Source of the DNA: Streptosporangiaceae bacterium
GTDB taxonomy: Bacteria > Actinomycetota > Actinomycetes > Streptosporangiales > Streptosporangiaceae
Reading direction: 5' to 3'
NCBI GenBank assembly: GCA_025935815.1
Contig: JAICUO010000006.1
Coordinates: 1 to 36,938 of the forward strand
Length of the DNA: 36,938 nucleotides
Numbering within the stretch: the first letter of the stretch is position 1; each line of letters starts with the position of its first letter. Below are positions 5,361-30,141 of this stretch, piece after piece. Both the position numbers and the translations under genes were made by a program. A model generated the notes under the pieces. It worked only from the letters and a program-made list of their open reading frames with translations. It was not told where the DNA came from and did not search any database.

Positions 5361-5422
5361 GTACGGAACCTAGCCTCGGAAATGCACGTTGAAGTTCTGT
5401 TGCGCTCATGTCGCACCGGGCT
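5361..5422. repeat. Copy 2 of a 62-bp imperfect direct repeat
   Basis: Matches 4951-5012. This copy lies just upstream of the AfsR-like gene, which starts at 5454. Because both copies are on the same strand, they face opposite ways relative to their nearest genes. Apart from the putative peptide and these repeats, I see no gene in 4593-5453. Confidence 0.75.
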
Positions 5423-5453
5423 CGACGAGGGGCGTGCTGTCCAGGAGAACGGA

Positions 5454-10206: not shown

Positions 10207-11838
10207 TTATCCCCGCACTCTCGTCTGGCTGACCATCTTTGCTAGCCTCTCGGTCTCGGCGGCGTCGATCACGCCCTCGACGAACGCCTCCAGGGTGAGT
10301 TCCTTGCGTGAGCGGGGCTCGTGCGCGATGACCGTCAGCCGCCCGTCGACGGAGATCCGCAGCGTGACCTGGATGACAGCGCCGGCAGGCAGCTTGCTGA
10401 GGCCGGTGAGCTCGCCGTCCAGCACCCGACGGTTGTGCTCGACCTCCGGGGAGAGCACGGCCCCGGACTGCTCGTACACCTGGATCCGGACCGATCCCTG
10501 ATTGGGCACGATGGTACCGAAGCGGTGCTCTGTCTGGTCGACCGGCAGCGGCGTGTTAGCCGTCACCATGTGCGCGATGAAGGCACGCTTGCCCTCGGGA
10601 TCATTGCTGTCCTCGATGCGGATGCCGACCGCGCGCGGCGTTACCGGGGTGATGGCGCCCGGGCCGCCGGGCAGGCCGCGCAACCATCCGGCGGAAGCCG
10701 CGGGGCCGCCACCCCGGGAATGGCTCGCTGCGTGCCGTGCGGTAAGGGCGGACATCTGCGCGGAGCCTACCAGGTGGTGCGCGCGCAGGGCGGCGCCCTT
10801 GGCCACGGCCAGATCCGGGTCGATCAGCTGGGGAACCTTGCCGAACAGGTCGGCGAGCCGCTGCCCGAGAACCGGGATGCGGCTCGACCCGCCCACCATG
10901 ATGATCTCGTCGATGTGATTGCCGCTGTTACCGGCGGCCCGCAGGACCCGCTCGATGATCTCCGACGTCGTCTGGTAGAGGTCCGAGCAGGCGGCGTCCA
11001 GGTCGGCGCGGTCGATCGTCACCGCGGCCCGACCGCGCGGGGTCCGCACCGAGATCTCCCGGGAGGTCACCTTGCTCAGGTCCTTCTTGGCCGCCTCGAC
11101 ATCCAGCGCGAGATCGGCCAGCCACGCCTGATCATCGATGAGGTCGTCCAGTTCCTCGGACGGCAGGATCTCGCCGAACCGCTCGGTAACCAGGTCGAGC
11201 AGCCGCCGGTCCACGTCCGCGCCGCCTAGCTCGTGGTGACCGTCGGTGGCCAGGACCCGGACCGCGCCGTCGACGATCCGCAGCACCGTGGTGTCGAAGG
11301 TGCCGCCGCCGAGGTCGTAAACGAGGATCGTCCGGTTCCCGCCGGTGGTCAGCCCATAGTGGGTGGCGGCCGCGACCGGCTCGTCGAGCAGTTCCAGGAC
11401 GTCCAGACCGGCGAGCACGCCCGCCTGATGGGTGGCCTCGCGCTCGGCCATGCCGAAGTACGCGGGCACGGTGATGACCGCGCTGACCTTCTCGTCTTGC
11501 GCTGGCCCGCCGCCCGTACCGGTGGCCGCGCTGACCAGCTGTCGCAGGATCAGCGCGGAGATGGATTCCGGGGTGTGCTGCTGCCCCCGGATGTCCAGCG
11601 GAAACTCGCTGCCCATGTACCGCTTGACCAGCCGGACACCGTTGTCCGGATCGAACGCGGCATCGCGGACTGCCTCGGTACCGACGAGCGCGGTGCCGTC
11701 CGCCTCGAAGTACACGACCGAAGGGGTGATCTGGCCGCCGTCCGCGTTGGGCAAGATCGCGACCACGCCGCTGTCGTCGACCGTGGCGACGACTGAGTTC
11801 GTCGTCCCGAGGTCAATCCCGATCACTCGGTGACTCAT
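10207..11838 (-). CDS. Hsp70/DnaK-like chaperone B (lidless)
   Basis: This 543-residue Hsp70 has a complete nucleotide-binding domain: phosphate 1 loop GIDLGTTNS, VPAYFGMAEREAT, phosphate 2 loop LVYDLGGGTFDTT, adenosine motif IIMVGGSSRIP, and DPDLAVAKGAA. A Gly/Ala/Pro-rich linker of about 40 residues and a beta-sandwich substrate domain follow. It stops near the end of the beta domain, about 70-100 residues shorter than DnaK. Most of the helical lid and the C-terminal tail are missing, as in the other two Hsp70s here. Its ATG overlaps the stop of the upstream microprotein by one base (TGATG), so they are coupled. It has no dedicated GrpE gene beside it. Confidence 0.95.
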   Translation of the reverse strand: MSHRVIGIDLGTTNSVVATVDDSGVVAILPNADGGQITPSVVYFEADGTALVGTEAVRDAAFDPDNGVRLVKRYMGSEFPLDIRGQQHTPESISALILRQLVSAATGTGGGPAQDEKVSAVITVPAYFGMAEREATHQAGVLAGLDVLELLDEPVAAATHYGLTTGGNRTILVYDLGGGTFDTTVLRIVDGAVRVLATDGHHELGGADVDRRLLDLVTERFGEILPSEELDDLIDDQAWLADLALDVEAAKKDLSKVTSREISVRTPRGRAAVTIDRADLDAACSDLYQTTSEIIERVLRAAGNSGNHIDEIIMVGGSSRIPVLGQRLADLFGKVPQLIDPDLAVAKGAALRAHHLVGSAQMSALTARHAASHSRGGGPAASAGWLRGLPGGPGAITPVTPRAVGIRIEDSNDPEGKRAFIAHMVTANTPLPVDQTEHRFGTIVPNQGSVRIQVYEQSGAVLSPEVEHNRRVLDGELTGLSKLPAGAVIQVTLRISVDGRLTVIAHEPRSRKELTLEAFVEGVIDAAETERLAKMVSQTRVRG

Positions 11839-11963
11839 CAGGCCCCTTTGACCAGCGCGGCCAGCGAGCCAAGCGCGTCGCCGAGCAGCAGGAGGAGGAT
11901 GAAGGCCAGCGTTATGGCCACGCTGACGGTGCGGAAAGCGGTGATGTACTGCGGGGTTTTCAT
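11838..11963 (-). CDS. 41-residue single-pass membrane microprotein
   Basis: This short frame starts MKTPQYITAFRTVSVAIT, continues into the hydrophobic run LAFILLLLLGDALG, and ends SLAALVKGA. It is predicted to have one transmembrane helix with a basic N-terminal side. Evidence that it is a gene is positional. Its ATG (11963-11961) overlaps the TGA of the membrane GTPase in an ATGA, and its TGA (11840-11838) overlaps the ATG of Hsp70 B in a TGATG. It fills the only gap larger than ten bases between the nine larger genes of this operon. I do not recognise a family. A role as a membrane partner for the adjacent GTPase or as an anchor for Hsp70 is inference. Confidence 0.75.
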   Translation of the reverse strand: MKTPQYITAFRTVSVAITLAFILLLLLGDALGSLAALVKGA

Positions 11964-13609
11964 GCGGATGCTCCTACAGGCCGCCGGGCGGGCTTGGCCA
12001 GGAGTGCGTCGCCGCCTGGCACCTTGACTCCGTGCGCGGCCAGCAGCCAGCGCAGCGGGACGCCGGGGTCATGCGCCCGGCCAATGGAGACGCCGAGCGA
12101 CGCAACGGTGAAGTACCGCACCTCGCGGAACTCGCGGGGGGCACCCATGGTCACGTTGTGGACCCCGTTGCTGGCTAGCCACCGGGCGATGTCACCGGAA
12201 TCGAAGGGGACCGCGAGGCCCGCGCCGCTGAGCAGGTCGGCCTTGGACACGATGACCGCGAGGCGCTGCGACTCGACCGGCACCCCCAGGCCGCGCAGCT
12301 GCGTCAGGACTTCGGTGTAGGAGACCTCCGGATCCATGCCTGCGATCGTCACCCGCGACAGCAGTGACGGGTCGCGGGACGCGGCCTGCTCGCGGATCGA
12401 GTCGACCGAGAACGGGTCCAGCACGTAGGCTAGGGCCTGGCCGTCTTCCAGGAACCGCAGAGAGCCGGCGTTCGTCTCCTGGTTGCCGTACCCCAGGGTC
12501 CAGTTTCCTGGGTTGCTGAACTGCTCGCCGGCCGCGTCGAACAGGTGGATGAAGTCCGCGTGGGTGCCCTCGCGCAGCCTCATGCTGATAGCAGTGGCGG
12601 GACCGTCCTGGGTCTTGTCGACCTTGTCGGCCTGCATCCGGCTGATCCAGTCCTCGGCCGTCTTCCGCGAAGGCTCGTCGAGGTATTCCCACTTCACGCG
12701 CGCGCGGTCAAGGTCCTGCTGCAGGCTATTGAGCGAGGAATACAGGAAGCGGGTCTTGCCTGCCGCCACCGCACCGAAGATCGGCACCCGGATGTCGCGC
12801 ACCGCGCCCGTCCCGTCGGGCAGCTCTTGCTGGCACTCCGCTCGCTTGCAGACGGCCCGCGTGTGCCAGGCCGCACGCGACGGCAAGGTGGGGAAGGTCG
12901 TGCCGCACCGGCCGCACTTACGGAAGAACGTGCCCAGGTCACTTGGCATGACGTCGTGGTGCCGCTCGCCGCACGTACGGCAGGCGTAGGCCGGCCAGGG
13001 GGTCACGTGCAGGCACTTCATGCAGGCGGCAGCGGTGTGCTTGCCCTTGCGGCGCCTGCCTTCACGGGCTCGCAGCTGCCCGCGCAGCACCGCTATGACC
13101 GTGTGGTCAAGCCACCAGCTCGCGGTCAGCAGGCCCCAGTACACCCAGTAGGAGGCCCATGAGACGAGGAAGGCTCCGCCCAGGAAGGACAGCACCGAGA
13201 CCGGCACCGGGAAGAGCAAGACCCACCAGGGCCAGCGGTGCTTGCCGTACCGGCGCTTGAAGAAGGTGTTGACCGGCCACGTCCACAGCCGCTTGTGGTA
13301 CGCGAGGAGGTTGGCCCGGACGGCCTTCTTGTCGATCCCGGCTTGCCGGAACGTGTAGAGCGGCCAGGCCAGGTCCGGAGGGAACTCACCCGGCCGGGGA
13401 ACCGGAACGCCCAGCCTTTTTGTCTCTGCCTGCAGCTTCTCGTCCTGGTACTGCTTGGGCTGGTAGAGCATGGACGGCAGGAACTGCTGGGGATTCTTGG
13501 CCTGCCCCCACAGGGTGAGCCAGAATGTCCGGGCGATCATGAAGAACCCGAAGAACAGGCCCGCCTGCAGCGCGATTAGATAGAAGTTGCCCAAAAGGAA
13601 ACGGATCAT
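11960..13609 (-). CDS. Membrane zinc-ribbon GTPase (DO-GTPase2-like)
   Basis: This 549-residue protein has hydrophobic segments at about 5-30 and 127-165. A cytosolic part with two Cys clusters follows: C196-x2-C199 with C210-x2-C213, then C232-x2-C235 with C254 and C259. The C-terminal GTPase has P-loop GAVAAGKT (279-286), switch-like DAAGE (358-362) and a base-specificity motif SKAD (455-458). This layout matches the membrane half of paired GTPases found in predicted actinobacterial conflict systems. The other half is the soluble GTPase at 16054-17217. It starts four bases after the GAP1-like stop and overlaps the microprotein start. Zinc binding and GTP hydrolysis are inferred from motifs. 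Confidence 0.85.
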   Translation of the reverse strand: MIRFLLGNFYLIALQAGLFFGFFMIARTFWLTLWGQAKNPQQFLPSMLYQPKQYQDEKLQAETKRLGVPVPRPGEFPPDLAWPLYTFRQAGIDKKAVRANLLAYHKRLWTWPVNTFFKRRYGKHRWPWWVLLFPVPVSVLSFLGGAFLVSWASYWVYWGLLTASWWLDHTVIAVLRGQLRAREGRRRKGKHTAAACMKCLHVTPWPAYACRTCGERHHDVMPSDLGTFFRKCGRCGTTFPTLPSRAAWHTRAVCKRAECQQELPDGTGAVRDIRVPIFGAVAAGKTRFLYSSLNSLQQDLDRARVKWEYLDEPSRKTAEDWISRMQADKVDKTQDGPATAISMRLREGTHADFIHLFDAAGEQFSNPGNWTLGYGNQETNAGSLRFLEDGQALAYVLDPFSVDSIREQAASRDPSLLSRVTIAGMDPEVSYTEVLTQLRGLGVPVESQRLAVIVSKADLLSGAGLAVPFDSGDIARWLASNGVHNVTMGAPREFREVRYFTVASLGVSIGRAHDPGVPLRWLLAAHGVKVPGGDALLAKPARRPVGASA

Positions 13610-13612
13610 CGG

Positions 13613-16057
13613 TTAACTCCGGAAGGTCCAGGTAAGGCCCCCATGCCTGGGGAACAGCGCTTCCCACTGATCGCGCAGTCCATCGCGCCCGAGCCGCTCG
13701 CCTACCTCGGCCCGCCACTTGTCCGCGCTCTTGCCGCCACTGGCGGCGCTGATCACGCTCGGGAACTGGCGGATCTCCCTGGCCACCATTTCCCGCCTTC
13801 GGCTCGGCATGTCCGGGTGCGTGTAGATATGGAAGAGCCACAACGCGCACTGCACCCGGTCCTCCGGGTCCTTTAGCTCGCCGAACCGAGTGCCGGCCAG
13901 GGCGATTAGCGCCCCGACCGGCGACTGTTTCCCCCGGGCGGGAAACCGCGCGAACGTATCCGCCGCGAGGTCTGGGTCCCGGCTGAGGGCTTCGACCACC
14001 TCGTCCGCCCGGAGCCGCACCACGGCCGGGCTCGCTTCGCAGACGAGCTTGATGGCCGTGCTCCGCATGCGCTGCTCGTGGATCTTGTCCCCGGAGGTGA
14101 TGTCGAGGAAGCGCGTGAGCTTCCGGTTGCCGTCGGCAAGGTCGGCCAGCTCCGGCGATCCGCTCGGGACCCGGTCGCCCAGGCTGGCCAGCACCGTGAG
14201 CAACTCCTGGTCCGGGTTGCGGGCCTTGTCCGCGAGCCAACTGCGCGCGTAGCCGTAGATCTCCGGGTTGACCTGGGATCCGGATACCTCCGTGATGATC
14301 GTGACGGCCACGGCCTCATTGACCGCGCCCCAGTCGAGCAGCGCCTCCTGCAGCTCGCGTACCGCCCGGGCGCCGAGATTAGCGTCCTTCCGCCGTAGCC
14401 TGCTGGCCGACGCCAGCAGGCTACGCAGGTACGCGATCTTCCTGTCAGCGGTCAGGGCGCTGACCCGCACCGCCTGCAGCGGCCAGTACAGCACGTCGTC
14501 CGGGTCCTTTGCGGCGCCGAAGAACGAGGCGAGACGGCGCACCGTTTCCCGAACGCCCGGCGCCGACGGGACTTCGGCATACCGCTTGGCCAGCTCTGCC
14601 CGTGCTTCGTCGATGATCAGGACGCCCAGGGCCCAGGTCCGCGGGTCGCCCGGTTTTTCGCTGCTGAGCCAGGCCCACGCGAGCTCCGTCACGAATTTGC
14701 GTACCGACGGCGATGGCGGCTCGAGTGAGATCCCGTGCCGCCGGGCAAGCCGCAGCAGCCGGTCGGCCTCGGCCTGGTCGATCTTGCCGTCGGTGCCGCG
14801 AAGCAGCGCCGACGTAAGGGCGCTCTCGGCGTCCCGCCGGGTCTGGTCAGTGAGTGCGGCATTCGGCAGTCCCGCGTCCGGGATGGCGCCGTCGGCGAGC
14901 GCATCGCCGATCTCGCTGTCGAGCAGCCGCGTGCGGATGACATTGTGATCAAATTCCAGTTCCCCGGCGGTGACCTGCGCGTCCAACCAGCGCAGCAGGT
15001 CGCCTGGCGGTCGCCCGGGTCCGCTCAGCAGTGCCTCGGTGATGGCCGGGCCGTGCTCGCGCAGCAGTGCCTGGCTGGCTTGCCGGAGCCAGTTGGACAG
15101 CGCGGCCGGGTCGGTGGCCAGGTCATCCGGCCGGGTCAGCGTCCAGGCGGCCTGCAGCGCTGACGCGTCCCCCGGCTTCAGGCCCGCGCCCAGCGCGCTG
15201 GCCAGGTCGATGGCATCGACGATGTCGTACGGGTCGGCGTCGCCGGTCAGTTTGGCTACCAGGAACTCGGCCCGCGCGGTGGTGGCGGCCTCATCGCTGC
15301 GGCCGGTGGCGGCGTCCAGCACGAACACTCCCAGGCCGGCGCCCGGGCGCAGGTCCGGGTTCACCTCCGGCGTGGCCGCCACTACCCGCTGCTGGGCCCG
15401 CAGCGGGGCGCCACTGAATACCTTGAAGGACACCTGAAGCGCCTCGCGCTGCGCCAGCAGCAGCGTCGCGGCAGCGATCCACCGCATCGCCTCGTCCGCG
15501 TCGGCCGAGACGATAACCACCCGCTGGCCCTTGGGGTCCTCCAGGACGCTGAGCAGGCGAGCCAGCGCCGGGCCGCGCTCGACCTGCTCACGGGCCCAGT
15601 TGGTGACGGTTTCCAGGTTCAGCGGACCGATCTCCAGGTCACCGTCGAAGTCAGGGCAGTCCCGGGTCGGCCACGGGTCGGCCCGCCACAGCGGCGACTG
15701 CCACAGCTGGGCCGGCCGGATAGTCCCGTACCGCTCGGGGTCGCGGGTCAGCAGGCAGTCGGCGAGATGGTTTCCCATCCGGCCGCCGACCGCCTCCTTC
15801 CCGACGTACCGGCCCTGAGCGGTCCCGTATCCCTCGGCGCCGGCGTGGGCGAAGCCGGGCGGGAAGTCCGCCACCGGACGGCCCGCGGCCAACCATGCGT
15901 TCTGCACCTCATACAGTAGCCACCCGACCGCGAATGACGCCTGCTGGGAGTCCACGCCAGGCGACTGCGCCTGGACCTGGAAGCCGCCCCCCGCGCTGCG
16001 CCCGGTGCCCGGCGCGCAGTCGGTGTACAGCAGCCGGCCAAAGGCAGTCTCCGTCAC
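13613..16057 (-). CDS. GTPase-associated protein 1-like (GAP1-like)
   Basis: This protein of about 814 residues begins MTETAFGRLLYTDCAPGTG, followed by GGFQVQAQSPGVD. Further on are GRYVGKEAVGGRMGNHLADCLL and a PFAM-like stretch around DGDLEIGPLNLETV. I recognise this as the N-terminal pattern of GTPase-associated proteins encoded with paired GTPases. The rest is helical and may be a repeat scaffold. I chose the GTG at 16057 because it overlaps the TGA of the upstream GTPase in a GTGA, a typical coupling arrangement; a GTG at 16102 would add 15 acidic residues and overlap by 49 bases. No enzymatic motif is visible. It is probably a regulator or adaptor of the two GTPases, which is inference. 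Confidence 0.8.
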   Translation of the reverse strand: MTETAFGRLLYTDCAPGTGRSAGGGFQVQAQSPGVDSQQASFAVGWLLYEVQNAWLAAGRPVADFPPGFAHAGAEGYGTAQGRYVGKEAVGGRMGNHLADCLLTRDPERYGTIRPAQLWQSPLWRADPWPTRDCPDFDGDLEIGPLNLETVTNWAREQVERGPALARLLSVLEDPKGQRVVIVSADADEAMRWIAAATLLLAQREALQVSFKVFSGAPLRAQQRVVAATPEVNPDLRPGAGLGVFVLDAATGRSDEAATTARAEFLVAKLTGDADPYDIVDAIDLASALGAGLKPGDASALQAAWTLTRPDDLATDPAALSNWLRQASQALLREHGPAITEALLSGPGRPPGDLLRWLDAQVTAGELEFDHNVIRTRLLDSEIGDALADGAIPDAGLPNAALTDQTRRDAESALTSALLRGTDGKIDQAEADRLLRLARRHGISLEPPSPSVRKFVTELAWAWLSSEKPGDPRTWALGVLIIDEARAELAKRYAEVPSAPGVRETVRRLASFFGAAKDPDDVLYWPLQAVRVSALTADRKIAYLRSLLASASRLRRKDANLGARAVRELQEALLDWGAVNEAVAVTIITEVSGSQVNPEIYGYARSWLADKARNPDQELLTVLASLGDRVPSGSPELADLADGNRKLTRFLDITSGDKIHEQRMRSTAIKLVCEASPAVVRLRADEVVEALSRDPDLAADTFARFPARGKQSPVGALIALAGTRFGELKDPEDRVQCALWLFHIYTHPDMPSRRREMVAREIRQFPSVISAASGGKSADKWRAEVGERLGRDGLRDQWEALFPRHGGLTWTFRS

Positions 16058-17217
16058 TTCGGCTTCACCGCCTTCACCATCTTGGCCTTGGACATCAGCC
16101 ACAGGATCGGGTCCGCGACCCGGTGCGGCCGGACCCCGCCGGTGGCGACGTGAGCCTGGTCGTAATCTGGCTGGGCGCCGAGCGCGGACACCCCGAAGTA
16201 GCGGTAGTTCGCGTAGTTCCGGCTGATGTGGCGGTCAATCTCCTCGGCGTCCCACTCCTTGAGCAGCATTCGCATCTGCTCGTGGACGGCCAGCCCGTCG
16301 CCCTCGTCGTAGGTCGTTCCGGACGGGGCTTTCGCCAGCAGCGGGTCGCTCTCCTCCAGCCCGGGGAAGAAGGAATCCATCTTGGTGAACACGAACGCCA
16401 CGTGAGTGGACAGCAGTTTTCCGCCCTTGAGCCGGTTGTGCGTCCGGAGCTGCTCGGTGACCTGTTCCAGGGCCTGCAGCGCGGCGTTGTCGGTCGTGCT
16501 CTGCAGCGCCTTCGGCGGCAGGTTGATCGAGGACCGCGCACCCGGCAGCGAGAACGGGTCGAGGGCCACGATGAGGTAGTCGCAGGCGTGCAGGTAGCGG
16601 ACCGCGGACACGTTCTCTCCGGAGGTGAAGTCCTCACCCGCGCTGTCGAGGAACGCCAGCATCGTGGACCTGCGGTCGGCCCGCCAGCGCAAGACGATGG
16701 GTATTCGCCCGTCCGCCTCGAACGTCCCGGTGCCTCCCGGGAGGGTTCCCGTCTGGTAGATGGCCTGCTCCCGCTGCCGCATATAGTCGGCGATGCTATT
16801 CATGCCATCGGGGTTGTCGACGGCGATCGCGATGTCCGCGTTGAAGCGCTGCGCGATGACCTTCCGCAGTTGCTGGATCATGACCGTCATCAGCACGGTC
16901 TTGCCGGATCCCTTGGAGCCGACCATGCCGAGCATCGGGGTCTTGGTGTCCACGAAGTCGATGGACAGCCCGGTGTGGCACTTGGGGCAGGCGCGCCGCC
17001 GGGTCTCGCCCTGGCAGTTCCCGCATTTGGCGACGCCCTTGCGGACCGCCGCATCGGGGGGGAGGTACCGGCCAGACGCGACGCCGCTGCCGGTGATGTC
17101 GCGCCGGTCCGGGTCGATGAGCGGCGGGCACTTGATGTGCCCCTGGCGGGCACACAGGTAGCCGAGCTTGGATGAGTCGATCTCGTAAAAGCAGAACGGG
17201 CAGGTAGTGCGAGCCAC
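16054..17217 (-). CDS. Soluble zinc-ribbon GTPase (DO-GTPase1-like)
   Basis: This 387-residue protein opens with zinc-binding pairs CPFC (6-9) and C22, then CGNC (65-68) and CPKC (77-80). A TRAFAC-like GTPase follows: P-loop GSKGSGKT (100-107), DSAGE (191-195) and FTKMD (277-281), the last fitting guanine recognition. There is no membrane segment. It starts with GTG three bases after the FN3 gene stop, and its own stop overlaps the GAP1-like start. A soluble and a membrane GTPase flanking a GAP1-like protein is the defining core of the predicted conflict systems I recall. The trigger and the fate of GTP are unknown. Confidence 0.85.
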   Translation of the reverse strand: MARTTCPFCFYEIDSSKLGYLCARQGHIKCPPLIDPDRRDITGSGVASGRYLPPDAAVRKGVAKCGNCQGETRRRACPKCHTGLSIDFVDTKTPMLGMVGSKGSGKTVLMTVMIQQLRKVIAQRFNADIAIAVDNPDGMNSIADYMRQREQAIYQTGTLPGGTGTFEADGRIPIVLRWRADRRSTMLAFLDSAGEDFTSGENVSAVRYLHACDYLIVALDPFSLPGARSSINLPPKALQSTTDNAALQALEQVTEQLRTHNRLKGGKLLSTHVAFVFTKMDSFFPGLEESDPLLAKAPSGTTYDEGDGLAVHEQMRMLLKEWDAEEIDRHISRNYANYRYFGVSALGAQPDYDQAHVATGGVRPHRVADPILWLMSKAKMVKAVKPK

Positions 17218-17220
17218 GCG

Positions 17221-19866
17221 TTAGTCCTCCTTCATGTCGCCCACGGGGGGGTCGACGAGCCTGCCGGGACCGCTCATGACGAAGCAGCGCACCCAGTAGG
17301 GCTTCTTGATGGTCTTGGGGAGCTCCGCCCGGTACTCGGCGGGCACTCCCGGGGTGAGGCTTAGCGTCGTCTCGAAGACGGTGACGCCCTCGGTCGGCCG
17401 GGTTGGCTTTATCGTGCCGGGCACGGCGATCAGCCGCACCGCGGTGCCGCCGCAAGGCTCGTCGGCGGTGAACGTCAGCTTCTTGGCGCGCCCGCTGAAG
17501 GGACCGCCGCCTGCCACCCGGTACCGGATCGCCGTCTTCATGACCTTGATGACGGTGTCCTTCACCGGCGCCGACGGGTAGCGCTTGCCGTTCGCGGTGA
17601 TCACGGCGCGGACCTCGATCTCAACTGGCCGCTGGCCCAGAGGGACCTGGGCGCCGCCCTTAGACTCGTACTCGGCCCGGCTGAGCACGTACGACTCCCA
17701 GTCGTCATCGCTGTCGCCTTGTGCCCGCCAGGAGACCTCGGCCAGCTGGACGGTTCCGGGCCAGTGCCAGGCGATGGACGCGTGATCCGCGAACGGGGTG
17801 GGGATGAGGTTGGTCACCGGGTCGATGATGGCCGTCGGCCGGGACCGCCCGACGGCGATACCGGTCCCGCCCACCGACACTGGCGTGAGGTAGTGCATGC
17901 CGCCGGGCAGCTCCACCTCCAGGGTTCGCTCCGCCCCTGATACCTCGACGTGCCCGGAGAGCATGGTGCCGCCCCGCCGGACCTCCTCGGGGGAGATCAC
18001 GGTCCCGTACGGCCACGGCTGGTCGCTGACCGTCTGCAGGATCCGGACCTCGGAGCTGTCGATCTGCTTCCAGCTCGCCCGCACCCGGGTCTGGCCGGCG
18101 GCCAGGGAGGTGGTGATCCGCAGGGTGTCGTTGGGCTTGGCCTCACCGCGGGGGGTCGCGGTGACCGTCCGCGGGAGCGAGCGCAGCTCCTCGCCCTCGG
18201 CCCCGCGGTAGACGGCCACCGCCGCGAAGAGCTGCGTGACCCCGTCCGGCAGGTCGGCGAGCTGCACGCTGCTGCCACTCACCGGGACCTCGACCGGTGG
18301 AGCGCCGCCGGCGGCACCGGAGGGGGAGCGGGTCACCATCACGCGCGCTTCCGGCTTGGCCTGCCAGTGCAGCGACACGGTGCCGATTCCCGTTTCGGCC
18401 CTCAGGTTCCACACCGGGGGCTTGGCCGTCACTGTGACGCTGCCGGCTCGCGACGGCGTCCGGCCCTCGGTGGTCGCGAACACCCCGTACTGAACTGGTC
18501 TGCCCGCGGGCGCGGCGGAGTCCGCGCACTCGACCTCGGCCCCCCGGTACACCGGGGTCCCGTCGCCAGGAGCGGCCGGAGCGCGGCCCTCGGTCCGCGC
18601 CACGACGTAGACAACGGACTCGTCATGCCCCGGTCCCCGCTGCCAGAACACCTTGACACTCTCGGCGTCGCCGGTCGCGGAGACAGCGCCAGGCGGGGCC
18701 AGCGGCAGCTGGCGCAGCAGGTCCTCCGCGTCGGAGAGGCTGATCCGCCTGGCAGCTTGCAGGTACTTTTCGGCCTCAGCCTCATCCGATGCCTGCCGGG
18801 CAGCCTCGGCCTTGGCCAGCAGCGCGCCCAGCTCCTGCTTGCTGGCTGCGATCAGTTTGACCAGGTCGGACTTATCGTCACCATCAGGCAGCGCGGCGGC
18901 CTGGCCCTCGGCCTCCTTCAACTGCCCGTCCGCCAGCAGTTTCCGGACCTGGTCAGCCAGGTTGACCTGGGTCGCCTTCTGGCGCCCGTCGAGCAGGGCC
19001 GCGATGATGGCGGCGTCGGTCGCCTCGACCCCGAGTCCCGCCAGCTCGCGCTTGGCCGCGGGCGGCGGGGCGTTCTTGACCAGGTCCACCAGGTGGCAGA
19101 GGGCCACCGCGTCCAGGTTGACGCCGCCGCCCAGCGCGTTGCTGAGCGTCGCCAGCGCCTCGCCCTTGGCGGTGGTGACGGGGTTGATGGCCTTCCCGGT
19201 GGCTTCCTTCTGCTCGCTGATCGCCTCTTTGTCGAGCCGCAGGGCTGGCTTGCCGGTGCAGGCATACCGCTCGACGATCTTGAACGTCCCCGATCCCGGG
19301 TGAAGCAGCTCGGGGATCGTTTTTACCTGTGCTTCCCTGAGCTTCTGGGTAAGGTTGTTGAACTGGACCGTGTTGATCGGGGGCTGCTCGGGGAGCTGCA
19401 CCTTCTCGTCGACGACGATCAGGCCGGCCTGCCGGGCTGCTGAGATAGCGTGCTCGGCGGACAGTCCTTGCAGGCTGCCGTAGGCGGCCGCGTTCCTGGC
19501 CGTCACCGCGCCGAGGCTGGCGTAGTCCTCGCGCAGGCTGACGGTGAGGCGCTGCACGGCCGCCTCCGCCTGCTTCGCCTCCGCTGCTGCCCGCTGCTGC
19601 CACCAGGCGATGGTCTCCAGCTGGCCGCCAAGCCTGGCCTTAAGCTCGCCGTCCCGGTCCTTGCACCACTTGGCGGTCTTGGCGAACCTGGCGTTCCCGT
19701 TGGCATGCTGGTTCCAGAACGCGCGGACCGCCTTGACCTGGGCCGCGATCTGCTCATTGGTGGTCGGAAGCGTGATCGCGTACCGTTCCAGCAGGTCTTC
19801 CGGGTTGGTCCCGGCCTTGCTGTGCCGGGTCAGGGTGGCCTTGTAGGCTTCCTTGTCGAACTGCAT
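17221..19866 (-). CDS. Large J-like / FN3 multidomain protein
   Basis: This 881-residue soluble protein has three zones. Residues about 23-75 (DLLERYAITLPTTNEQI, then VKAVRAFWNQHANGNARF) have the helical spacing of a J-domain, but the invariant HPD is replaced by H54-A-N. Residues about 90-385 are helical and charged, probably coiled coil. From about 392 to the end are several beta domains with fibronectin type III character (VKVFWQRGPGHDESVVYVV, VSLHWQAKPEARVMVTR, ASIAWHWPGTVQLAEVSW). It lies between Hsp70 A and the soluble GTPase, nine bases after the Hsp70 stop. It may act as a co-chaperone-like scaffold linking Hsp70 A to a target. The J-like reading is a hypothesis. Confidence 0.75.
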   Translation of the reverse strand: MQFDKEAYKATLTRHSKAGTNPEDLLERYAITLPTTNEQIAAQVKAVRAFWNQHANGNARFAKTAKWCKDRDGELKARLGGQLETIAWWQQRAAAEAKQAEAAVQRLTVSLREDYASLGAVTARNAAAYGSLQGLSAEHAISAARQAGLIVVDEKVQLPEQPPINTVQFNNLTQKLREAQVKTIPELLHPGSGTFKIVERYACTGKPALRLDKEAISEQKEATGKAINPVTTAKGEALATLSNALGGGVNLDAVALCHLVDLVKNAPPPAAKRELAGLGVEATDAAIIAALLDGRQKATQVNLADQVRKLLADGQLKEAEGQAAALPDGDDKSDLVKLIAASKQELGALLAKAEAARQASDEAEAEKYLQAARRISLSDAEDLLRQLPLAPPGAVSATGDAESVKVFWQRGPGHDESVVYVVARTEGRAPAAPGDGTPVYRGAEVECADSAAPAGRPVQYGVFATTEGRTPSRAGSVTVTAKPPVWNLRAETGIGTVSLHWQAKPEARVMVTRSPSGAAGGAPPVEVPVSGSSVQLADLPDGVTQLFAAVAVYRGAEGEELRSLPRTVTATPRGEAKPNDTLRITTSLAAGQTRVRASWKQIDSSEVRILQTVSDQPWPYGTVISPEEVRRGGTMLSGHVEVSGAERTLEVELPGGMHYLTPVSVGGTGIAVGRSRPTAIIDPVTNLIPTPFADHASIAWHWPGTVQLAEVSWRAQGDSDDDWESYVLSRAEYESKGGAQVPLGQRPVEIEVRAVITANGKRYPSAPVKDTVIKVMKTAIRYRVAGGGPFSGRAKKLTFTADEPCGGTAVRLIAVPGTIKPTRPTEGVTVFETTLSLTPGVPAEYRAELPKTIKKPYWVRCFVMSGPGRLVDPPVGDMKED

Positions 19867-19875
19867 GGGCGCCGC

Positions 19876-21564
19876 CTACATGCCCTTGCGAAGCGCGGAG
19901 ACGATGGCCTTCTCCTGGGCGACCTGCTCGTCTGACATGATGGCGATCTTGACCGACATCTTCAGCTCCTTACCGCTGGTCGGCTCGACCGCGAGCAGGT
20001 TGACGGTGCCCTCAGCGTCGACGTCGAAGGTGATGTCGATTGGCGAGCCGGCCGGCAGCCGGAACGATCCAAGGCCCTCGATGAGGCCCGCGTTGTCGAC
20101 CCGGTGGTTGGCTGAAAGCGCCGTGCCGGGAACGGCCCCGGCCTGCTCCCAGATCTCGATCTCAATCGTCTGCTGGTTAGCCCGCATCGTGCCGGCGGTG
20201 AACTTCTCGGCCTGGTACGGGAGCTGGGTCTGCGCGTGGACCATGTGCTCGACGTAGAACCTTTCCTCATCGGAAAGTGAGTCCCAGTCCGGCTTGTCGT
20301 CGGCCAGCTTGATGCCCACCGCCTTGGGCAGCACGTTGACGATCGTCTTGGTGAGCTTCTCGACCTGCTTGGGATCCAGCCCGGTGTCCGCGGCGACGGC
20401 CGCGATGGCCGCCGGGCCGGGCAGGGACCGGGTGCGCCCGGTGCCCTCCGCGGGGGCATCGCCGGCTTCCGCCTCGACCAGCCGGACCGTCTGCCCGGCC
20501 GCGTACAAGGCGGCACCCTTGGCCACCGCGAGGTCAGGGTCAGCCAGCTTCGGCTCCCACGAGTACTCCTTGCGGAGCCGCTCGGCCACGGCGGGCATCT
20601 TGCTCGACCCGCCGACCAGCAGGAGGTCGGTGATCTGGCCGAGCACGCCGGGGAAGCGCTCCTCCGCCTTGTCCAGCATCCGGCTGGTGATGGTGACGGT
20701 CGCCTCCAGCAAGTCGGAGGTCATCTCCGCGAACTGCTCGCGGGTCACGGAGATCGAGGTCGCCATGCCGCCGGCCAGGCGGTGGTTGACCTTCTTGGAC
20801 TCGGCCTTGGTCAGCGCCTTCTTGGTCTCCTCAGCCAGCCGGCGCAGCTCCTGCAGGGTGGCCTCGTCGTCGTTGATGGAGTCGTCGCCGGTCTGCTCGA
20901 CGGTCTGGTCCTTGAGGTAGTCGAATAGCCGGGCATCCCAGTCAGCGCCGCCGAGCTTGTGGTCCCCGTCGACCGCGAGGACCTCCACCGAGGTGTCGGT
21001 CATCTTGATCAGCGTGATGTCGAAGGTGCCACCGCCCAGGTCGTAGACCAGGAATGTGGTACCGTCCCCGCTGCCGGTGACCCCGTAGGCCAGGGCGGCG
21101 GCGACCGGCTCGGGGACGATCCCGATGACCTCAAGGCCGGCGATCTCGCCGGCCTTTTTGGTGGCGTCCTTCTCCAGCAGCCCGAAGTAGGCCGGCACGG
21201 TGATGACCGCCTGCTTCACCGGACGGTGAGTCTCCTCCTCAGCGCTCTTGGCCAGCGCCGCGAGGATGATCCCGGATATGCCGGACGGAGACAGTTCCTG
21301 TCCGTAGAAGCTGCGGGAGTAGTCCTTGTTGCCCATCTCACGCTTGATCAGCGAGACGACATCATCGGGGCGGAACCCCGCCGCCTCCTTGGCTGTCTTG
21401 CCGACGACGGTGTTATCCGCCGTCTCGAAGTACACCACGGACGGGGTCGTGTCCTCGCCGTCTGTGTTGCGGACAACCGCCGGGCGGCCTGTCTCGTCGA
21501 TGTAGGCCACCACCGAGTAGGTGGTGCCGAGGTCGATGCCGTAGATGCCCTGCTGCTCGCTCAC
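19876..21564 (-). CDS. Hsp70/DnaK-like chaperone A (lidless)
   Basis: This 562-residue Hsp70 has all nucleotide-binding motifs: GIDLGTTYS, VPAYFGLLEKDAT, LVYDLGGGTFDIT, LLLVGGSSKMP and DPDLAVAKGAA. The linker is unusual. A helical insert of about 50 residues (AIAAVAADTGLDPKQVEKL) replaces the short DnaK linker, and Hsp70 C has a similar insert (DVAATTGMTIPEVEAI). The substrate domain is a short beta-sandwich with EIWEQAG, and most of the C-terminal helical lid is absent. Its ATG overlaps the stop of the upstream GrpE-like gene by four bases, so the pair is coupled as nucleotide exchange factor and chaperone. It is clearly not the housekeeping DnaK, whose operon would include grpE, dnaJ and hspR. 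Confidence 0.95.
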   Translation of the reverse strand: MSEQQGIYGIDLGTTYSVVAYIDETGRPAVVRNTDGEDTTPSVVYFETADNTVVGKTAKEAAGFRPDDVVSLIKREMGNKDYSRSFYGQELSPSGISGIILAALAKSAEEETHRPVKQAVITVPAYFGLLEKDATKKAGEIAGLEVIGIVPEPVAAALAYGVTGSGDGTTFLVYDLGGGTFDITLIKMTDTSVEVLAVDGDHKLGGADWDARLFDYLKDQTVEQTGDDSINDDEATLQELRRLAEETKKALTKAESKKVNHRLAGGMATSISVTREQFAEMTSDLLEATVTITSRMLDKAEERFPGVLGQITDLLLVGGSSKMPAVAERLRKEYSWEPKLADPDLAVAKGAALYAAGQTVRLVEAEAGDAPAEGTGRTRSLPGPAAIAAVAADTGLDPKQVEKLTKTIVNVLPKAVGIKLADDKPDWDSLSDEERFYVEHMVHAQTQLPYQAEKFTAGTMRANQQTIEIEIWEQAGAVPGTALSANHRVDNAGLIEGLGSFRLPAGSPIDITFDVDAEGTVNLLAVEPTSGKELKMSVKIAIMSDEQVAQEKAIVSALRKGM

Positions 21565-22235
21565 TGCTCTTCCTTCGCGGCCATGAAAACGGTGACTTCG
21601 GCGGGCGCCAGCGGGCTGTCCGACTCGATGTCCAGGTAGCCGGGCTGCCGCACGGCGGCGACGAGCCCGGCCTGGGCCGGGTCGGTGCTGGGCTGGCGCT
21701 TGACCTGACGGTGCCGGCGTGGGTTGAAGGGATCCCCCTCATCTGGCTGGTACATGATGACGCCGTTGTCCTCCAGCGCTTCCCCGAGCGTGTCGGTGTA
21801 GGACTGCAGCAGCCGGACGGCCTTAGCGGCATCAAAGTCTGGCGGCAGGGTCGCGGCCTGCCTCACGAGGTCAGCATGCAAGCGGCACATCTGCGTCAGG
21901 AGCGGGCGCAGCAGGCCGCGACGCTCTCCCCGGCGCAGCAACTCAAGCTCTGACCGCAGGTAATCAATCACGCGCTCGCGCTGCTGCGCCCGGTCGTGAT
22001 AGTGCCCGGCCGAGTCGGCCAGGTCGCGGAGCACCGCCGAGATCTCAGGATCGGCGGGTGCGGGAACCGCTGTCCCCGTGTCCCGCAGCGCGCCGGACGG
22101 CTGTGCGGAACTAGACGGCTGTGCGGGCGGCGTGACGCCTGCGGGGCTATCCGCGTGGGGAAATTCAGGATGATCGAATTCACCGGCCGTGGTGCTGGTC
22201 AACGAGTTTTCGACCGAATCTAGCTCCGGTGCCAC
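21561..22235 (-). CDS. GrpE-like nucleotide exchange factor A
   Basis: This protein of about 224 residues has a disordered N-terminal 90 residues rich in Pro, Ala, Ser and Asp. A GrpE-like coiled coil follows (RAQQRERVIDYLRSELELL) and then a four-helix region (RRGLLRPLLTQMCRLHADL). The C-terminus contains EDNGVIMYQP, PFNPRRHR and a beta-wing ending PLAPAEVTVF. The second GrpE-like protein shares the same positions. I chose the GTG at 22235 because a GAGGAGG ribosome site lies five bases upstream; the longer frame from GTG 22289 has none. It is the first gene of the leftward operon and overlaps Hsp70 A by four bases. Its role is probably to release ADP from Hsp70 A. Confidence 0.82.
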   Translation of the reverse strand: MAPELDSVENSLTSTTAGEFDHPEFPHADSPAGVTPPAQPSSSAQPSGALRDTGTAVPAPADPEISAVLRDLADSAGHYHDRAQQRERVIDYLRSELELLRRGERRGLLRPLLTQMCRLHADLVRQAATLPPDFDAAKAVRLLQSYTDTLGEALEDNGVIMYQPDEGDPFNPRRHRQVKRQPSTDPAQAGLVAAVRQPGYLDIESDSPLAPAEVTVFMAAKEEQ

Positions 22236-23083
22236 CGGCGCCTCCTCAACGATTTTTGGGCACGGCGAATGAGCACCGCGATAATCCACCGATCACCCGA
22301 GCCGGACTCATGGTGACGGAATTCCTGACTAGCTTTCTGGTGTGACGCCAAGGTGCGCGGTCCGGTTTACGCGGAACCGGAAACTGTTAGGAACATATTA
22401 GAAGATTGAGCTTAGTGATTGGCGAATAGGGCTACTGCGACACGTAGGCGGGGCGCGGCAATTCCCTATGACGTGCGCCAGAGGTGGCTTAGTGATGGCC
22501 CGTCCCCCGGATCCCCCCGGTTTCTCCCATCACATCCAGTACCACGCGTGTCGCATCAATCGCTAGTGTCGCGGCCCCGCTTGACGTGTCTGGTTACGTT
22601 TTGTACGCGGGGCGCCCTATCGAAGGCAAGGCCACCCGGTGCTTCATAGCGAGAATCGCGCAAACCGAAGATCGCAGGTCAGGCAAACTCCCATCTCAGA
22701 GGGCTTGCGTCGGGTGGTTTATGGAACCAGCCGGGTGATCCGTGGAAAACTACTGCCATGGGACGTCCGCAGGAGCCGCCAGCCAGCTAGTCTCACCGCC
22801 CTGGGCACAACCCGGCCTGCGGGTGGCGGGCGGCCAGCCTGCCGACGGCAGGTATGCTGCCCCTCCAGACCGGCTGATCCCGGCGACGACGACGGCCGCG
22901 CTCGCGCAGCAGGCGCAGGTCGGCTACCACATTCGTTAGTGGCGGCAGCCCCGTTCTGGGGCAGCGGTTTGCGCGGCCAAATGCCCGCATGCCGATTCCG
23001 GTTCCTCGGTCACAGTCCCGAGCATGCCCTAGTTCAGGGCGGGTCGCATATGGTCAAGTGTCGGTGCGCGGCACGGGCTGGGC

Positions 23084-23206: not shown

Positions 23207-23791
23207 GTGACGGACGATGCAACCGTTGCCAAAAACGAAGGGCAAGTGGCCGCAGTGCCAGCTGGCCTGCTACTCGAGGCTGTTAGATCTCTGCACGACG
23301 CAATGCAGGACCTGGCCGCTCAGGTTGCCAATGAGCATGACCGGGCGAAAGCGCGTGAGGCGGTCATCGACCGGCTGCACGAGGAGACCCAGCGGCTGCG
23401 CGCAGGGGAGGGCCGTGAATTGCTCCGGCCTGTGCTGTCTGACCTGCGAAAACTCCGCGATGACCTGCAAGGCCAGGCCCGGTCGGTTCCGGGGGTAATG
23501 TCGAACGCCAATGTAGCGGCCCTCCTCGATTCCTACGCCGACAGTGTGGAGCTGATCCTGGAGCGGAATGGCGTCATGGCGGTCCGCCCGAAGCCGGACG
23601 CGCCGTTTGACCCGCGCCGGCATCGCGCTGCCGGGATAGCGGCCGCCTCTGAGCAGGGACTCGATGGGATGATCGCGACGGTGCTGAACGACGGCTACGA
23701 GGACACGCAGACCGGCTCGGTGATCGCGCCAGCCAGGGTCATCGTCTACCGGCACACGGGCGCCGGAGGACCAGACGGTCGGGACGGCTGA
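23207..23791 (+). CDS. GrpE-like nucleotide exchange factor C
   Basis: This 194-residue protein is a compact counterpart of the leftward GrpE-like factor. A long coiled coil (DLAAQVANEHDRAKAREAV, then IDRLHEETQRLRAGEGREL) leads into LLRPVLSDLRKLRDDLQGQA. The C-terminus has ERNGVMAVRP, PFDPRRHR and a wing ending IAPARVIVY. The shared blocks VID-L, LR-GE-R-LLRP, E-NGV and PF-PRRHR show the two are paralogues. It lacks the disordered N-terminal 90 residues of its partner. It starts the rightward operon, with the CHAT gene five bases downstream and Hsp70 C after that. It probably serves Hsp70 C. Confidence 0.82.
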   Translation: MTDDATVAKNEGQVAAVPAGLLLEAVRSLHDAMQDLAAQVANEHDRAKAREAVIDRLHEETQRLRAGEGRELLRPVLSDLRKLRDDLQGQARSVPGVMSNANVAALLDSYADSVELILERNGVMAVRPKPDAPFDPRRHRAAGIAAASEQGLDGMIATVLNDGYEDTQTGSVIAPARVIVYRHTGAGGPDGRDG

Positions 23792-23796
23792 GCGCC

Positions 23797-26700
23797 GTGC
23801 ACCCGGTACAGGTGGCTAGCCGCATGGCCGCGCTGCGCATCGAGCTCTCCATGGCGGGAACGTCGGCGGAGTCCGTTCCCGCGCTCGCCGCACTGATCGA
23901 GATCGCGGGCGAACTCCAGCAAGACGGCGGCGCGGGAGGGGAGCAGGCCAGGCCGGTCCTTGATGACGTGCTCAGCTACCTGCGGGCCGCGCGCGGGCGG
24001 CTGCCAGACAAGAACCCGGCCAGTCCGCCGCAGGAGGACGAGACGGTGGCCATGCTGTACCTGGAGGCCGAGGCCTGCCTCTTGCGGGACGCCGAGGGCA
24101 CCCCAGTCTGCGACCTCGACAACGCGATCGAGTGCCTGCGTCGGCTACGCGCCCTGCTCCCTGAAGACAGCGACGAACGGGCAGAGGCCGACGCCCGGCT
24201 GACGTTCGCGGCGCTCACTCGCGTCGGCCGCCCGGGCGGCAGCCGGGCCGACATCGACGAGGCGGCCACGCTGCTCGATGGTCTGCTGGCCCGCACCGCC
24301 CCCGGTGACCCGGGCCGCCGCCAGGTCACCCGGAGCCTGGCGGTCGCGCGCGGAGTGCGCTTCACGACCTTCAGTGGCACCGACGAAGACCGCAAGGCCG
24401 CCCTCGGCTACGCGCAGGAGTGCCTCGCGATGCCAGCTCCCGCAAGCGCGGCAGACGCCACTGGGGATGTCTGCCACTTGATGATCGCGTGGCTGACGCT
24501 CGCCCGGCAATTCACCGCCGAACAGCGATCGGCGGGATTCCGGCAGGCCGAGGTGGAGGCCGCGCGCCACGACGGGAAGGCCGCCGCCACCCTGATGGCC
24601 CAGTTCGGCAAGCTGGCTATCGCGCCGGACGATGCCCGCGTCGCGCTGGGCCACCTGCGCCAGGTATCCGGCGCGCTGGCTGATGAGGGCATGCGAGGCA
24701 TGAAGCCAATGCTGTGGAGCACGGCGCTGCTGGCCGCCCGCGACGAAGCACCGGACGGGGACGCCCGCCCGGAGGATGAACTACGCCAGATGGCGGATGA
24801 GCTGGAGCGCGCGGCGGCTGAGGATCCGCCGGGAGCCACGGAGATGCTGGTGGCCCGCGCGGCGCTGCTCGTCACGCACGTGCAGGACCCCGCAGGAGCC
24901 GGGCAGCACGCCCGAGCCGCGCGGGCGCTGAACGACGCCGCGGCCCGGCTGCCCGCCGGGCACCCGGTCCGGGACGCCGGCCTGGCCATGCTCACGAGCG
25001 GGCTGAAAAGCCAGGTGGACTCGGCTGACAGGGCAGACGATCCCGCCGCGGGCCTCAGTGAGGTCCTGGCGGTCCTGAATCAGGTACCCCGCGATGACCC
25101 CGACTTCGCGCGGCTGCTGGCCTCGGTTGGCATTCACGCGCTCGGCCTCGGGATCACCCATCGCTCCGTTGCCGCCGACGGCCAGATCGCTGAGCAACTC
25201 AACCAGGCTATTGCCGTCCTTGGCCCGGAGGAGCCGGTGGGCGTCCTCGCCGAGATGATGTCGGCGACATCCGCTGGGCTGCGCGGGGAACTGCGGCAGG
25301 AGCCAGCCGAGCTGGACTCGGCAATCGGCCGGCTGCGCACGGTGGCTGACTCTCGCAGCGGCAGTGACTGGCTCCGGACGTTCGCCTTGTCGGGGCTAGT
25401 AATGACGCTGATTGACCGGCACGCCATGCGCGGCGCGATCCGCGATCTCGAGGATGCCGGCACCTGCCTGGAGCAAGCGTTCGCCAGCATAGACCCCGGA
25501 GGGCCGTACGCCGAGGGCACCGCCCTGCACGGGAGCTTGCTGTTCATGCGCGCGCACCTGCGGCTGGTGTGGTGCCACTACAGCCAGGAACCCGACCCGG
25601 TGCACATAGGGGAGGCGGTCGCTGACCTTGAGCGTGCCCTGCCGGCGGTGGGCGGGCATCAGTCACTCGAGTCCATGGTATCGCGGGAGCTGCAGGCCGC
25701 CCGGGCGCTGCGCGAGATCGCATCGGCTAAGGGCAGGGTTTTCCTCAGCCCGGTCGCGCGGGAGTCCTACGCGGAGATGCTGGCCCAGGCCCAGAGGCTG
25801 AACGCCGATCATCCCGACTACCCCGCGCTGGTTGCCCAGGGCGCGAGTGGCCTCATGATGGGCGCCTTGGCCGACAATAACCTCAAGCAGATCGACCGGG
25901 CCATTACGCTGCTCGGCGACGCTTGCTCGGTTCCCGGGCTGGCGGTCCGGGAGCGTCCCCGGCTGCTTGCCCTGCACGGGTTCGCGCTGCTGACCCGGCA
26001 TTTCCGGCGCAACAGCCCCCGCGACCTCAGCAACGCGATCGGACGGCTGGAAGAGGCGCGGCGAGCGGTGGAGCTGGAGACCGGGAGCCCTTATGCGACC
26101 GACGTCCTGCTGAAGCTGGCCCTCGCCTACCGCACCCGAGCGGACGTGGCGCGTGGTGACGTGGACCGCGCCGTCGACTACGGACTTCAGGGCCTGCGCG
26201 AGCATACCGGTGACGTGCTGCTGCAAAGCAACGATTACCAGGCGCTGCACATCGCCCGGCGCGGGCGGGAGGACGCGACCGAGATGGTCCGGTGGTTCCT
26301 TGACCATGGCCGGGAGGCCGCCTCCGTCGCAGCGATCGAACTCGGCCGGGGAGCAGTGCTGCACGCTGCGACTGCCGGCGCGAGCGTAGAGGAGGCTCTG
26401 CGGCTGGCAGGCAAGGCCGAACTGGCAGCGAGATGGACCCAACGCTCACCTGATGACCGGGAATCCAGCGCTGACCCGGACCTGCGGTACGAGGTCATGC
26501 TGGCCATCGAGAATTCCCCGGCAGAAGCCCGGCTGCTTTCCCCGCCATCGGTAGGCGACATTGCCGCGGCGCTTACGGTCAGCGCCGCGGACGTGCTCGT
26601 TTACCTGCTGGCAGAGGAGTCCGGGGCACCTGGCCTGGCCGTGCTCGTGGACCGGGCCAAGGACGTCCGCCAGCTACGGCTGCCCGGCCTGGCGGCCGAC

Positions 26701-27798
26701 AATAGCACCCCGGCAGGGCGCTTCATCCAGGCCCGGCGCGATGCCGACGCGCTCGACCGGGCACACCAGGACGCAAGGGCGGCGACCAAGGCCTGGGAAG
26801 CCGCTCTCGCCTCGTTGTGCGAGTGGGCATGGCGGGTCGCCATCGGGCCGGTGCTCGATGACCTGCGGGATCGCGGCGGCAGCCGGGACTGGCGCATCGT
26901 GCTGGCCCCTGGCGGGGAACTGGGCCTCATCCCGTGGCATGCCGCTCGCGAGCCCGGCACGGGGCGGTATGCCTGCCAGCGCGCGGTGTTCTCGTACGCG
27001 TCCTCGGCCCGGCAGTTCATTGACGCTACCCAGTGCCAGCCGCAGCCCTGGAGGCAGGACCCGGTCCTCATCTCTGACCAGAAGAATTCAGAGCGGCTGA
27101 TCAACGTCGGCATCCGCGGGCTGCACGCCGAGCACTACCAGGCCGGCGCCGTGTACGGCGCGGCGCGGGATAAGCTGCCCGCCAGCGTCCCGGGCGAGGA
27201 CACCGCGAGGTCGGGCACGATACTCACCGCCCTGCCCGGTCCCGGTGGCCCCGGCAGGTCCATGCTGCACTTCGGGTGTCATGGCCGGGCCGAGGTGCCG
27301 GTCTTGCGCTCCCGCATCCGGCTGGGAGATGAGGCAGGCGCCGACGGGCGGCAACGGGAGATCCTGCTCAGGGTTGAGGACATCATCCGCCAGGCGCGCA
27401 GATGGCGGTCGGACCGGCAGGCCCCAGCCAGCACCTGCGGGCTGGTGGTGCTCGCGTCCTGCCTATCCGACGTCACCGACGCCGACTACGACGAGGCGCT
27501 CACGCTCGCGACGGCCTTCTTGTCGGCCGGCGCGGGCGGCGTGGTCGCGGCCCGGTGGCGGGTGGACGTGAACGCCACTGCGCTCTTGATGGCCGCGTTC
27601 CACCGGTACCTCAACGCCGGAGCCAGCCCGGCCTGGGCGCTGCGGCAGGCCCAGCGGTGGATGCTCGACCCGGGGCGGGACATCCCGGGGGAGTGGCCGC
27701 GCGAGCTACGCGAGGAAACAGGGCTTGCCGCCGAGTCCGGCGGCCCGGACCTGGCCAGGCCGGCGGCCTGGGCCGGGTTCACCTACCAGGGCCGGTGA
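23797..27798 (+). CDS. CHAT-domain caspase-like protease with helical repeats
   Basis: This protein of about 1333 residues has a long N-terminal helical part of TPR character (repeated A-L-L and LDNAIECLRRLRALLPEDSD-type units, roughly residues 1-900). A C-terminal CHAT domain follows from about 1000, with APGGELGLIPWHAARE. The catalytic dyad is visible: His1162 in HFGCHG and Cys1222 in VLASCLSD, followed by the typical GAGGVVAARWRVD strand. CHAT proteases belong to the caspase-like clan CD and act as effectors or signal transducers in bacterial immunity and death pathways. The start is uncertain: GTG 23797 follows the GrpE-like stop by five bases, while ATG 23824 has a better purine stretch. 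Its substrates may be encoded in this same locus, which is inference. Confidence 0.93.
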   Translation: MHPVQVASRMAALRIELSMAGTSAESVPALAALIEIAGELQQDGGAGGEQARPVLDDVLSYLRAARGRLPDKNPASPPQEDETVAMLYLEAEACLLRDAEGTPVCDLDNAIECLRRLRALLPEDSDERAEADARLTFAALTRVGRPGGSRADIDEAATLLDGLLARTAPGDPGRRQVTRSLAVARGVRFTTFSGTDEDRKAALGYAQECLAMPAPASAADATGDVCHLMIAWLTLARQFTAEQRSAGFRQAEVEAARHDGKAAATLMAQFGKLAIAPDDARVALGHLRQVSGALADEGMRGMKPMLWSTALLAARDEAPDGDARPEDELRQMADELERAAAEDPPGATEMLVARAALLVTHVQDPAGAGQHARAARALNDAAARLPAGHPVRDAGLAMLTSGLKSQVDSADRADDPAAGLSEVLAVLNQVPRDDPDFARLLASVGIHALGLGITHRSVAADGQIAEQLNQAIAVLGPEEPVGVLAEMMSATSAGLRGELRQEPAELDSAIGRLRTVADSRSGSDWLRTFALSGLVMTLIDRHAMRGAIRDLEDAGTCLEQAFASIDPGGPYAEGTALHGSLLFMRAHLRLVWCHYSQEPDPVHIGEAVADLERALPAVGGHQSLESMVSRELQAARALREIASAKGRVFLSPVARESYAEMLAQAQRLNADHPDYPALVAQGASGLMMGALADNNLKQIDRAITLLGDACSVPGLAVRERPRLLALHGFALLTRHFRRNSPRDLSNAIGRLEEARRAVELETGSPYATDVLLKLALAYRTRADVARGDVDRAVDYGLQGLREHTGDVLLQSNDYQALHIARRGREDATEMVRWFLDHGREAASVAAIELGRGAVLHAATAGASVEEALRLAGKAELAARWTQRSPDDRESSADPDLRYEVMLAIENSPAEARLLSPPSVGDIAAALTVSAADVLVYLLAEESGAPGLAVLVDRAKDVRQLRLPGLAADNSTPAGRFIQARRDADALDRAHQDARAATKAWEAALASLCEWAWRVAIGPVLDDLRDRGGSRDWRIVLAPGGELGLIPWHAAREPGTGRYACQRAVFSYASSARQFIDATQCQPQPWRQDPVLISDQKNSERLINVGIRGLHAEHYQAGAVYGAARDKLPASVPGEDTARSGTILTALPGPGGPGRSMLHFGCHGRAEVPVLRSRIRLGDEAGADGRQREILLRVEDIIRQARRWRSDRQAPASTCGLVVLASCLSDVTDADYDEALTLATAFLSAGAGGVVAARWRVDVNATALLMAAFHRYLNAGASPAWALRQAQRWMLDPGRDIPGEWPRELREETGLAAESGGPDLARPAAWAGFTYQGR

Positions 27799-27841
27799 GC
27801 CAGGACCTGGAGAGATCAGGGACAGGGAGATAAGGGGAGAC

Positions 27842-30140: not shown

Positions 30141-30141
30141 C

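Follow-up and report, generated by a model that had tools for sequence, protein, structure and literature searches.

A conserved helical domain at the N-terminus of an FN3 protein lies beside a stripped-down Hsp70 in many soil actinobacteria, and stands directly downstream of that lidless chaperone in three types of system, two of which have no GTPase/GAP1 genes nearby. The reading that we favour, with a probability of roughly 0.55, is that a dedicated, non-J domain docks a J-independent lidless Hsp70, with GrpE resetting the chaperone, the FN3 repeats sensing and the GTPase/GAP1 components serving as a relay. The protein that led us to this arrangement, P0001 (881 aa; 17221–19866, minus strand), has an N-terminal four-helix domain (residues ~1–85; 19612–19866, minus strand, delimited from AF2 models and an alignment), a middle helical region and a C-terminal half of FN3-like β domains (17224–18759, minus strand). 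Assignment of the latter holds at the family level: the FN3 family profile matches fibronectin chains (E = 2e-6) and Pfam fn3 is found in 2 of 20 homologues, with no Pfam FN3 match in P0001 itself.

P0001 is the third gene of a nine-gene operon on the minus strand of the window (the whole 36,938-nucleotide stretch of Streptosporangiaceae DNA that was analysed), and its open reading frame and coordinates were confirmed. The operon opens with a GrpE-like nucleotide exchange factor (21561–22289; PF01025, E = 2e-8), which overlaps by 4 bp the gene for Hsp70 A (19876–21564; PF00012, E = 4e-89). P0001 starts 9 bp behind the Hsp70 A stop codon, so that its placement directly behind an Hsp70 with no α-helical lid, as given in the first-pass annotation, stands. 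There follow a DO-GTPase2 (16054–17217; PF19993, E = 6e-9), a GAP1-N2/GAP1-M protein (13613–16102; PF20013, E = 4e-21; PF20014, E = 7e-15), a second DO-GTPase2 (11960–13609; PF19993, E = 1e-10), the lidless Hsp70 B (10207–11838, with Glu at the DnaK R167 position, from Pfam and residue comparison), a stand-alone vWA protein (9574–10203; PF13519, E = 5e-10) and, as the last gene, a 258-residue protein with a hydrophobic N-terminus recognized by sequence inspection (8794–9570). Neighboring genes overlap or are separated by a few bases throughout, except for ~120 bp ahead of Hsp70 B. With GAP1-N2 and GAP1-M beside two DO-GTPases and, on family-level evidence, an FNIII-repeat protein, the operon is a GAP1-N2 DO-GTPase conflict system of the HSP70/GrpE theme of Kaur et al (2020; PMC7159879). 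PADLOC defence models returned nothing from the window beyond a marginal DO-GTPase match, and a plasmid search with GAP1 gave zero matches. A second copy of the module is present in the same genome (locus L050), its FN3 paralogue being 43% identical to P0001.

The 258-residue protein contains a PD-(D/E)XK-like stretch discernible by eye (SPDFIIRYQGAALFVETKW) and is possibly a membrane-anchored nuclease effector; a Pfam match was sought for it and none was found. Elsewhere in the window, a SARP/AfsR-type regulator (BTAD, NB-ARC and TPR; 5184–8615, plus strand) is convergent with the nine-gene operon, and a second Hsp70 cluster (23207–31571, plus strand) comprises GrpE, a 1333-residue CHAT-domain protein, a lidless Hsp70 C with Asp at position 167, a 226-residue unknown, a RES-domain protein and a 251-residue unknown. 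A related Hsp70 + CHAT pair adjoins the GAP1 operon at another locus (L083).

The first-pass annotation had read residues ~23–75 of P0001 as a J-like domain in which the HPD motif retains its His and has lost Pro-Asp. The AF2 model of the domain (pLDDT 83) has helices at approximately residues 5–18, 25–28, 37–55 and 59 onward, in agreement with the model of a homologous domain (pLDDT 89, pTM 0.78), and an alignment of 33 members has Asp24, Arg28, Tyr29, Val47 and Trp51 invariant. The segment that had been aligned to RKYHPDKN (residues 48–58) corresponds to the end of predicted helix 37–55 plus a three-residue turn, and this turn between helices II and III has the same length in both models; the HPD-bearing loop is hence absent altogether rather than mutated. 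The HPD tripeptide is missing from P0001 and from every aligned homologue; the supposed site falls inside a helix. The retained His is accidental: where P0001 has His54, the closest homologue has Val and most others in the 33-member alignment have Ala, Ser or Cys.

Comparison with J-domains at the level of sequence gave little. Pfam DnaJ (PF00226) matches none of the 33 members up to E = 1, and P0001 scores −1.5 bits against the J-domain HMM, a value equalled or exceeded by 94% of its family's shuffles. Profile–profile comparison by hhalign (against 8, then 15 J-domains, both with HPD masked and unmasked) yielded scores of 10–15 where the 95% limits from column shuffles lie at 12.6–15.8, and true distant J-domains used as controls reached 45.9 (HscB) and 55.4 (DjlA); a few shuffles scoring near 130 from tiny end matches were treated as artefacts. 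The widest N-domain profile reached 15.1, higher than any of 100 shuffles of itself, though in a shifted register. Three Foldseek searches of PDB and BFVD with the two AF2 models returned no J-domain up to E = 10, and neither model has a J-fold with a II–III loop of ~10 residues, both observations being made without a J-domain folded as control. Pfam, profile–profile comparison and the AF2/Foldseek analysis thus speak together against J-domain identity: no HMM, profile or fold comparison lends convincing similarity to the residues first likened to a J-domain, and the refuting outcome named alongside that likeness, a predicted fold other than the J-domain helical hairpin, was reached as far as models without a folded J-domain control can show. 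Sequence and predicted structure do not allow the N-terminal domain to be identified as a J-domain; the DnaJ fusion of FNIII proteins stated by Kaur et al (2020) was not confirmed among the 33 homologues.

A distant J ancestry must nonetheless be weighed, the proposal being that the domain is a real, extremely diverged J-domain without HPD (akin to Pam16/Tim16) that docks the J-site of Hsp70 without stimulating it. Kaur et al (2020; PMC7159879) describe the FNIII protein in such systems as usually carrying a DnaJ fusion, the order of the helices (short, long, long) matches that of J-domains, and masking HPD gives a family median of 3.6 bits with the J HMM, above a shuffle 95% value of 3.0. A set of relatives that we term group-2 (L215–L227, e.g., L217:8555–11134) has the Hsp70 and the FN3 protein without DO-GTPase/GAP1; their FN3 proteins contain a second unit resembling J helices I–II (score 31; 95% of the null lies below ~13–14), which aligns to some N-domain profiles with scores of 23–28 and so leaves a very distant J ancestry of the N-domain standing. 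The link drops to 15 with the widest profile, however, and it meets the negative Pfam result, profile–profile scores that no version lifted clearly above shuffles, the lack of any J-domain up to E = 10 in Foldseek and the three-residue turn in place of the HPD loop. We consider such an origin unlikely. The group-2 second unit (SLFDLLGVPPGSDRATIRAAHDDAATRNRARRPDRRRALIDDLL) is likewise without HPD, and a second J-like unit in P0001, looked for by analogy with these relatives, was not found.

The preferred reading, a dedicated non-J domain, draws on the constancy with which the domain accompanies the lidless Hsp70. A first attempt at a contig scan of genomes with the single protein P0001 gave zero relatives; relatives turned up in 64 of the 201 genomes searched within the same order, and a further 80 loci came from named genera (Actinomadura, Thermomonospora, Actinocorallia, Spirillospora, Sphaerisporangium, Herbidospora, Actinoallomurus and Acrocarpospora) and unnamed bins. 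Of the 68 P0001-derived loci, 46 have the domain immediately after a lidless Hsp70, at a median gap of 34 bp; among the 80 N-terminal-family loci the count is 79, with a median gap of 27 bp. As an independent test, 395 genomes of the class were searched with Hsp70 A alone and 20 new Hsp70 loci inspected: by HMM, the domain is directly downstream in 15, rising to 18 upon inclusion of three (L324, L327 and L328) in which the FN3 protein downstream of Hsp70 has a divergent or undetected copy, the remaining two having a domain fragment and no domain (L321), respectively. Neither DO-GTPase nor GAP1 was detected at 16 of the 20, nor at 13 of 14 group-2 loci; this persistence of the Hsp70–domain pair without them indicates that the domain follows the chaperone rather than the GTPase. 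Across 182 loci, no open reading frame matched the canonical HPD J-domain profile.

Loss of the two partners is also associated. The domain is missing from none of 43 loci with the Hsp70 and from 7 of 13 without it (Fisher p = 7e-6; treating the three divergent copies as missing gives 4e-4; both values uncorrected for relatedness). At Hsp70-less loci, the domain has in many cases disappeared or been cut short, and three of them (L086, L088 and L246) keep a C-terminal Hsp70 relic beside the FN3 gene. Strict co-loss was considered and does not hold, with six exceptions: six genomes of genus g3 (L087, L239, L240, L244, L245 and L247) keep the FN3 protein with its N-domain and have no lidless Hsp70 that we could find anywhere, which argues against an exclusive role and makes another role for the domain possible. 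The alternative that the domain serves DO-GTPase/GAP1, its adjacency to Hsp70 reflecting operon order alone, finds its footing here, in five genomes where the domain and GTPase/GAP1 genes occur without any lidless Hsp70; we regard it as improbable given that the domain and Hsp70 persist without detectable GTPase/GAP1 in the group-2 loci and in those found blind with Hsp70 A.

The chaperone itself departs from DnaK at the points where a J-protein would act. Hsp70 A comprises a nucleotide-binding domain (NBD, residues 7–355) with conserved ATPase residues, an inserted segment and an SBDβ (residues 444–548), having lost the VLLLD linker along with the lid; at DnaK positions R167, N170 and T173 it has Gly, Pro and Val, whereas the host's own DnaK retains Arg, Asn and Thr. 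Arg is found at position 167 in none of 167 operonic Hsp70s (Asp in 144, Gly in 13, Asn in nine and Glu in one), while the ATPase residues Asp8, Lys70, Arg71, Glu171, Thr199 and Asp201 are invariant in all of them. The set has likewise lost the lid and the VLLLD linker: linker residue D393 is nearly always replaced, the linker region spans 26–50 residues (vs. 10 in DnaK) and ~18–20 residues follow DnaK position 508 in most groups (vs. 131 in DnaK). R167 is the residue engaged by the Asp of the J-domain HPD; work on DnaK and Ssq1 found that changing it to Asp mimics the J-bound interface in simulations, and that changes to the arginine network somewhat raise basal ATPase and render J stimulation ineffective (PMC7289447). 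Loss of R167 and of the VLLLD linker, with ATPase residues kept, suggests that these Hsp70s are probably not DnaJ-driven and that the pair probably operates without the classical J-protein switch.

We also considered R167 loss as a signature specific to co-evolution with the N-domain, and discarded it: among the Hsp70 paralogues of three complete genomes from a related genus, DnaK alone still has R167, and the loss is thus better taken as a mark of DnaJ independence. Charges at Hsp70 position 167 and just after Trp51 seemed at first to compensate for each other (Asp with WRR, Gly with WN), a pattern that the group-2 loci break; Gly at 167 co-occurs with both WN and WQ, and there is no consistent covariation with the N-domain. 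The first-pass proposal of a co-evolved, non-canonical Hsp70 partner survives as gene linkage across the three system types, and is not supported as a J-domain that has lost its HPD.

In the mechanism that we propose, GrpE, lidless Hsp70 and the FN3 protein would form a three-gene chaperone module, whose linkage is observed and whose direct binding we infer. The N-domain would tether the FN3 protein to the Hsp70, which would probably run without a J-protein, by itself or under the adaptor, and be reset by GrpE; the FN3 repeats could recruit or sense a target and, in the Streptosporangiales and relatives, the module would be coupled to DO-GTPases and GAP1, passing the signal to effectors (both steps following Kaur et al, 2020). 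That the FN3 protein is instead an ordinary client or effector assembled by Hsp70, its N-domain being a client tag and not a co-chaperone, fits a retained SBDβ with which peptide binding is possible and the description of Hsp70 itself as an assembly-forming effector (Kaur et al, 2020; PMC7159879), but is highly improbable, as a four-helix domain with invariant Asp, Arg, Tyr, Val and Trp looks more like a folded module for interaction than like an extended peptide tag. More tentatively, and at somewhat less than even odds, these loci may represent a widespread actinobacterial class of Hsp70 that has discarded the J switch, combining replacement of R167 by Asp, Gly or Asn, loss of the lid and classical linker, and a non-J adaptor fused to FN3, sometimes together with a GTPase conflict system.

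The conflict system itself is already known (Kaur et al, 2020; PMC7159879). The window shares with the GAP1-N2 systems of that study, which are mostly actinobacterial, the DO-GTPase pair, GAP1-N2, HSP70, GrpE, an FNIII-repeat protein, a second HSP70 and vWA. It differs in that a DnaJ domain, to which (or to TPR) the FNIII protein of this theme is typically fused, is not demonstrable in the 33 homologues, in that the GrpE–Hsp70–FN3 module also occurs without GTPase/GAP1, and in that the Hsp70 is without the J-docking arginine and linker; if our reading is true, the annotation of these conflict systems as DnaJ fused to FNIII would be revised for this lineage. Our literature search found no report of the module without its GTPase core, of FNIII proteins in this lineage for which the DnaJ assignment fails or of universal R167 loss. 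In Pam16/Tim16, too, a helical domain without HPD accompanies an Hsp70 machine, but Pam16 is a recognizable degenerate J-domain paired with a true J-protein (PMC3174187), whereas the loci here have no recognizable J-domain and no J-protein. With DnaK–DnaJ–GrpE, in which J-proteins are described as obligatory cochaperones (PMC7289447), the window system has in common the Hsp70 NBD, SBDβ, GrpE and invariant ATPase residues, and differs by the absence of lid, VLLLD linker, R167 and HPD partner. It would, if so, constitute a natural Hsp70 family missing both halves of the HPD–R167 contact with GrpE and the ATPase residues kept, and a ready test of whether an Hsp70 cycle can run J-domain-free and of what a substitute adaptor looks like.
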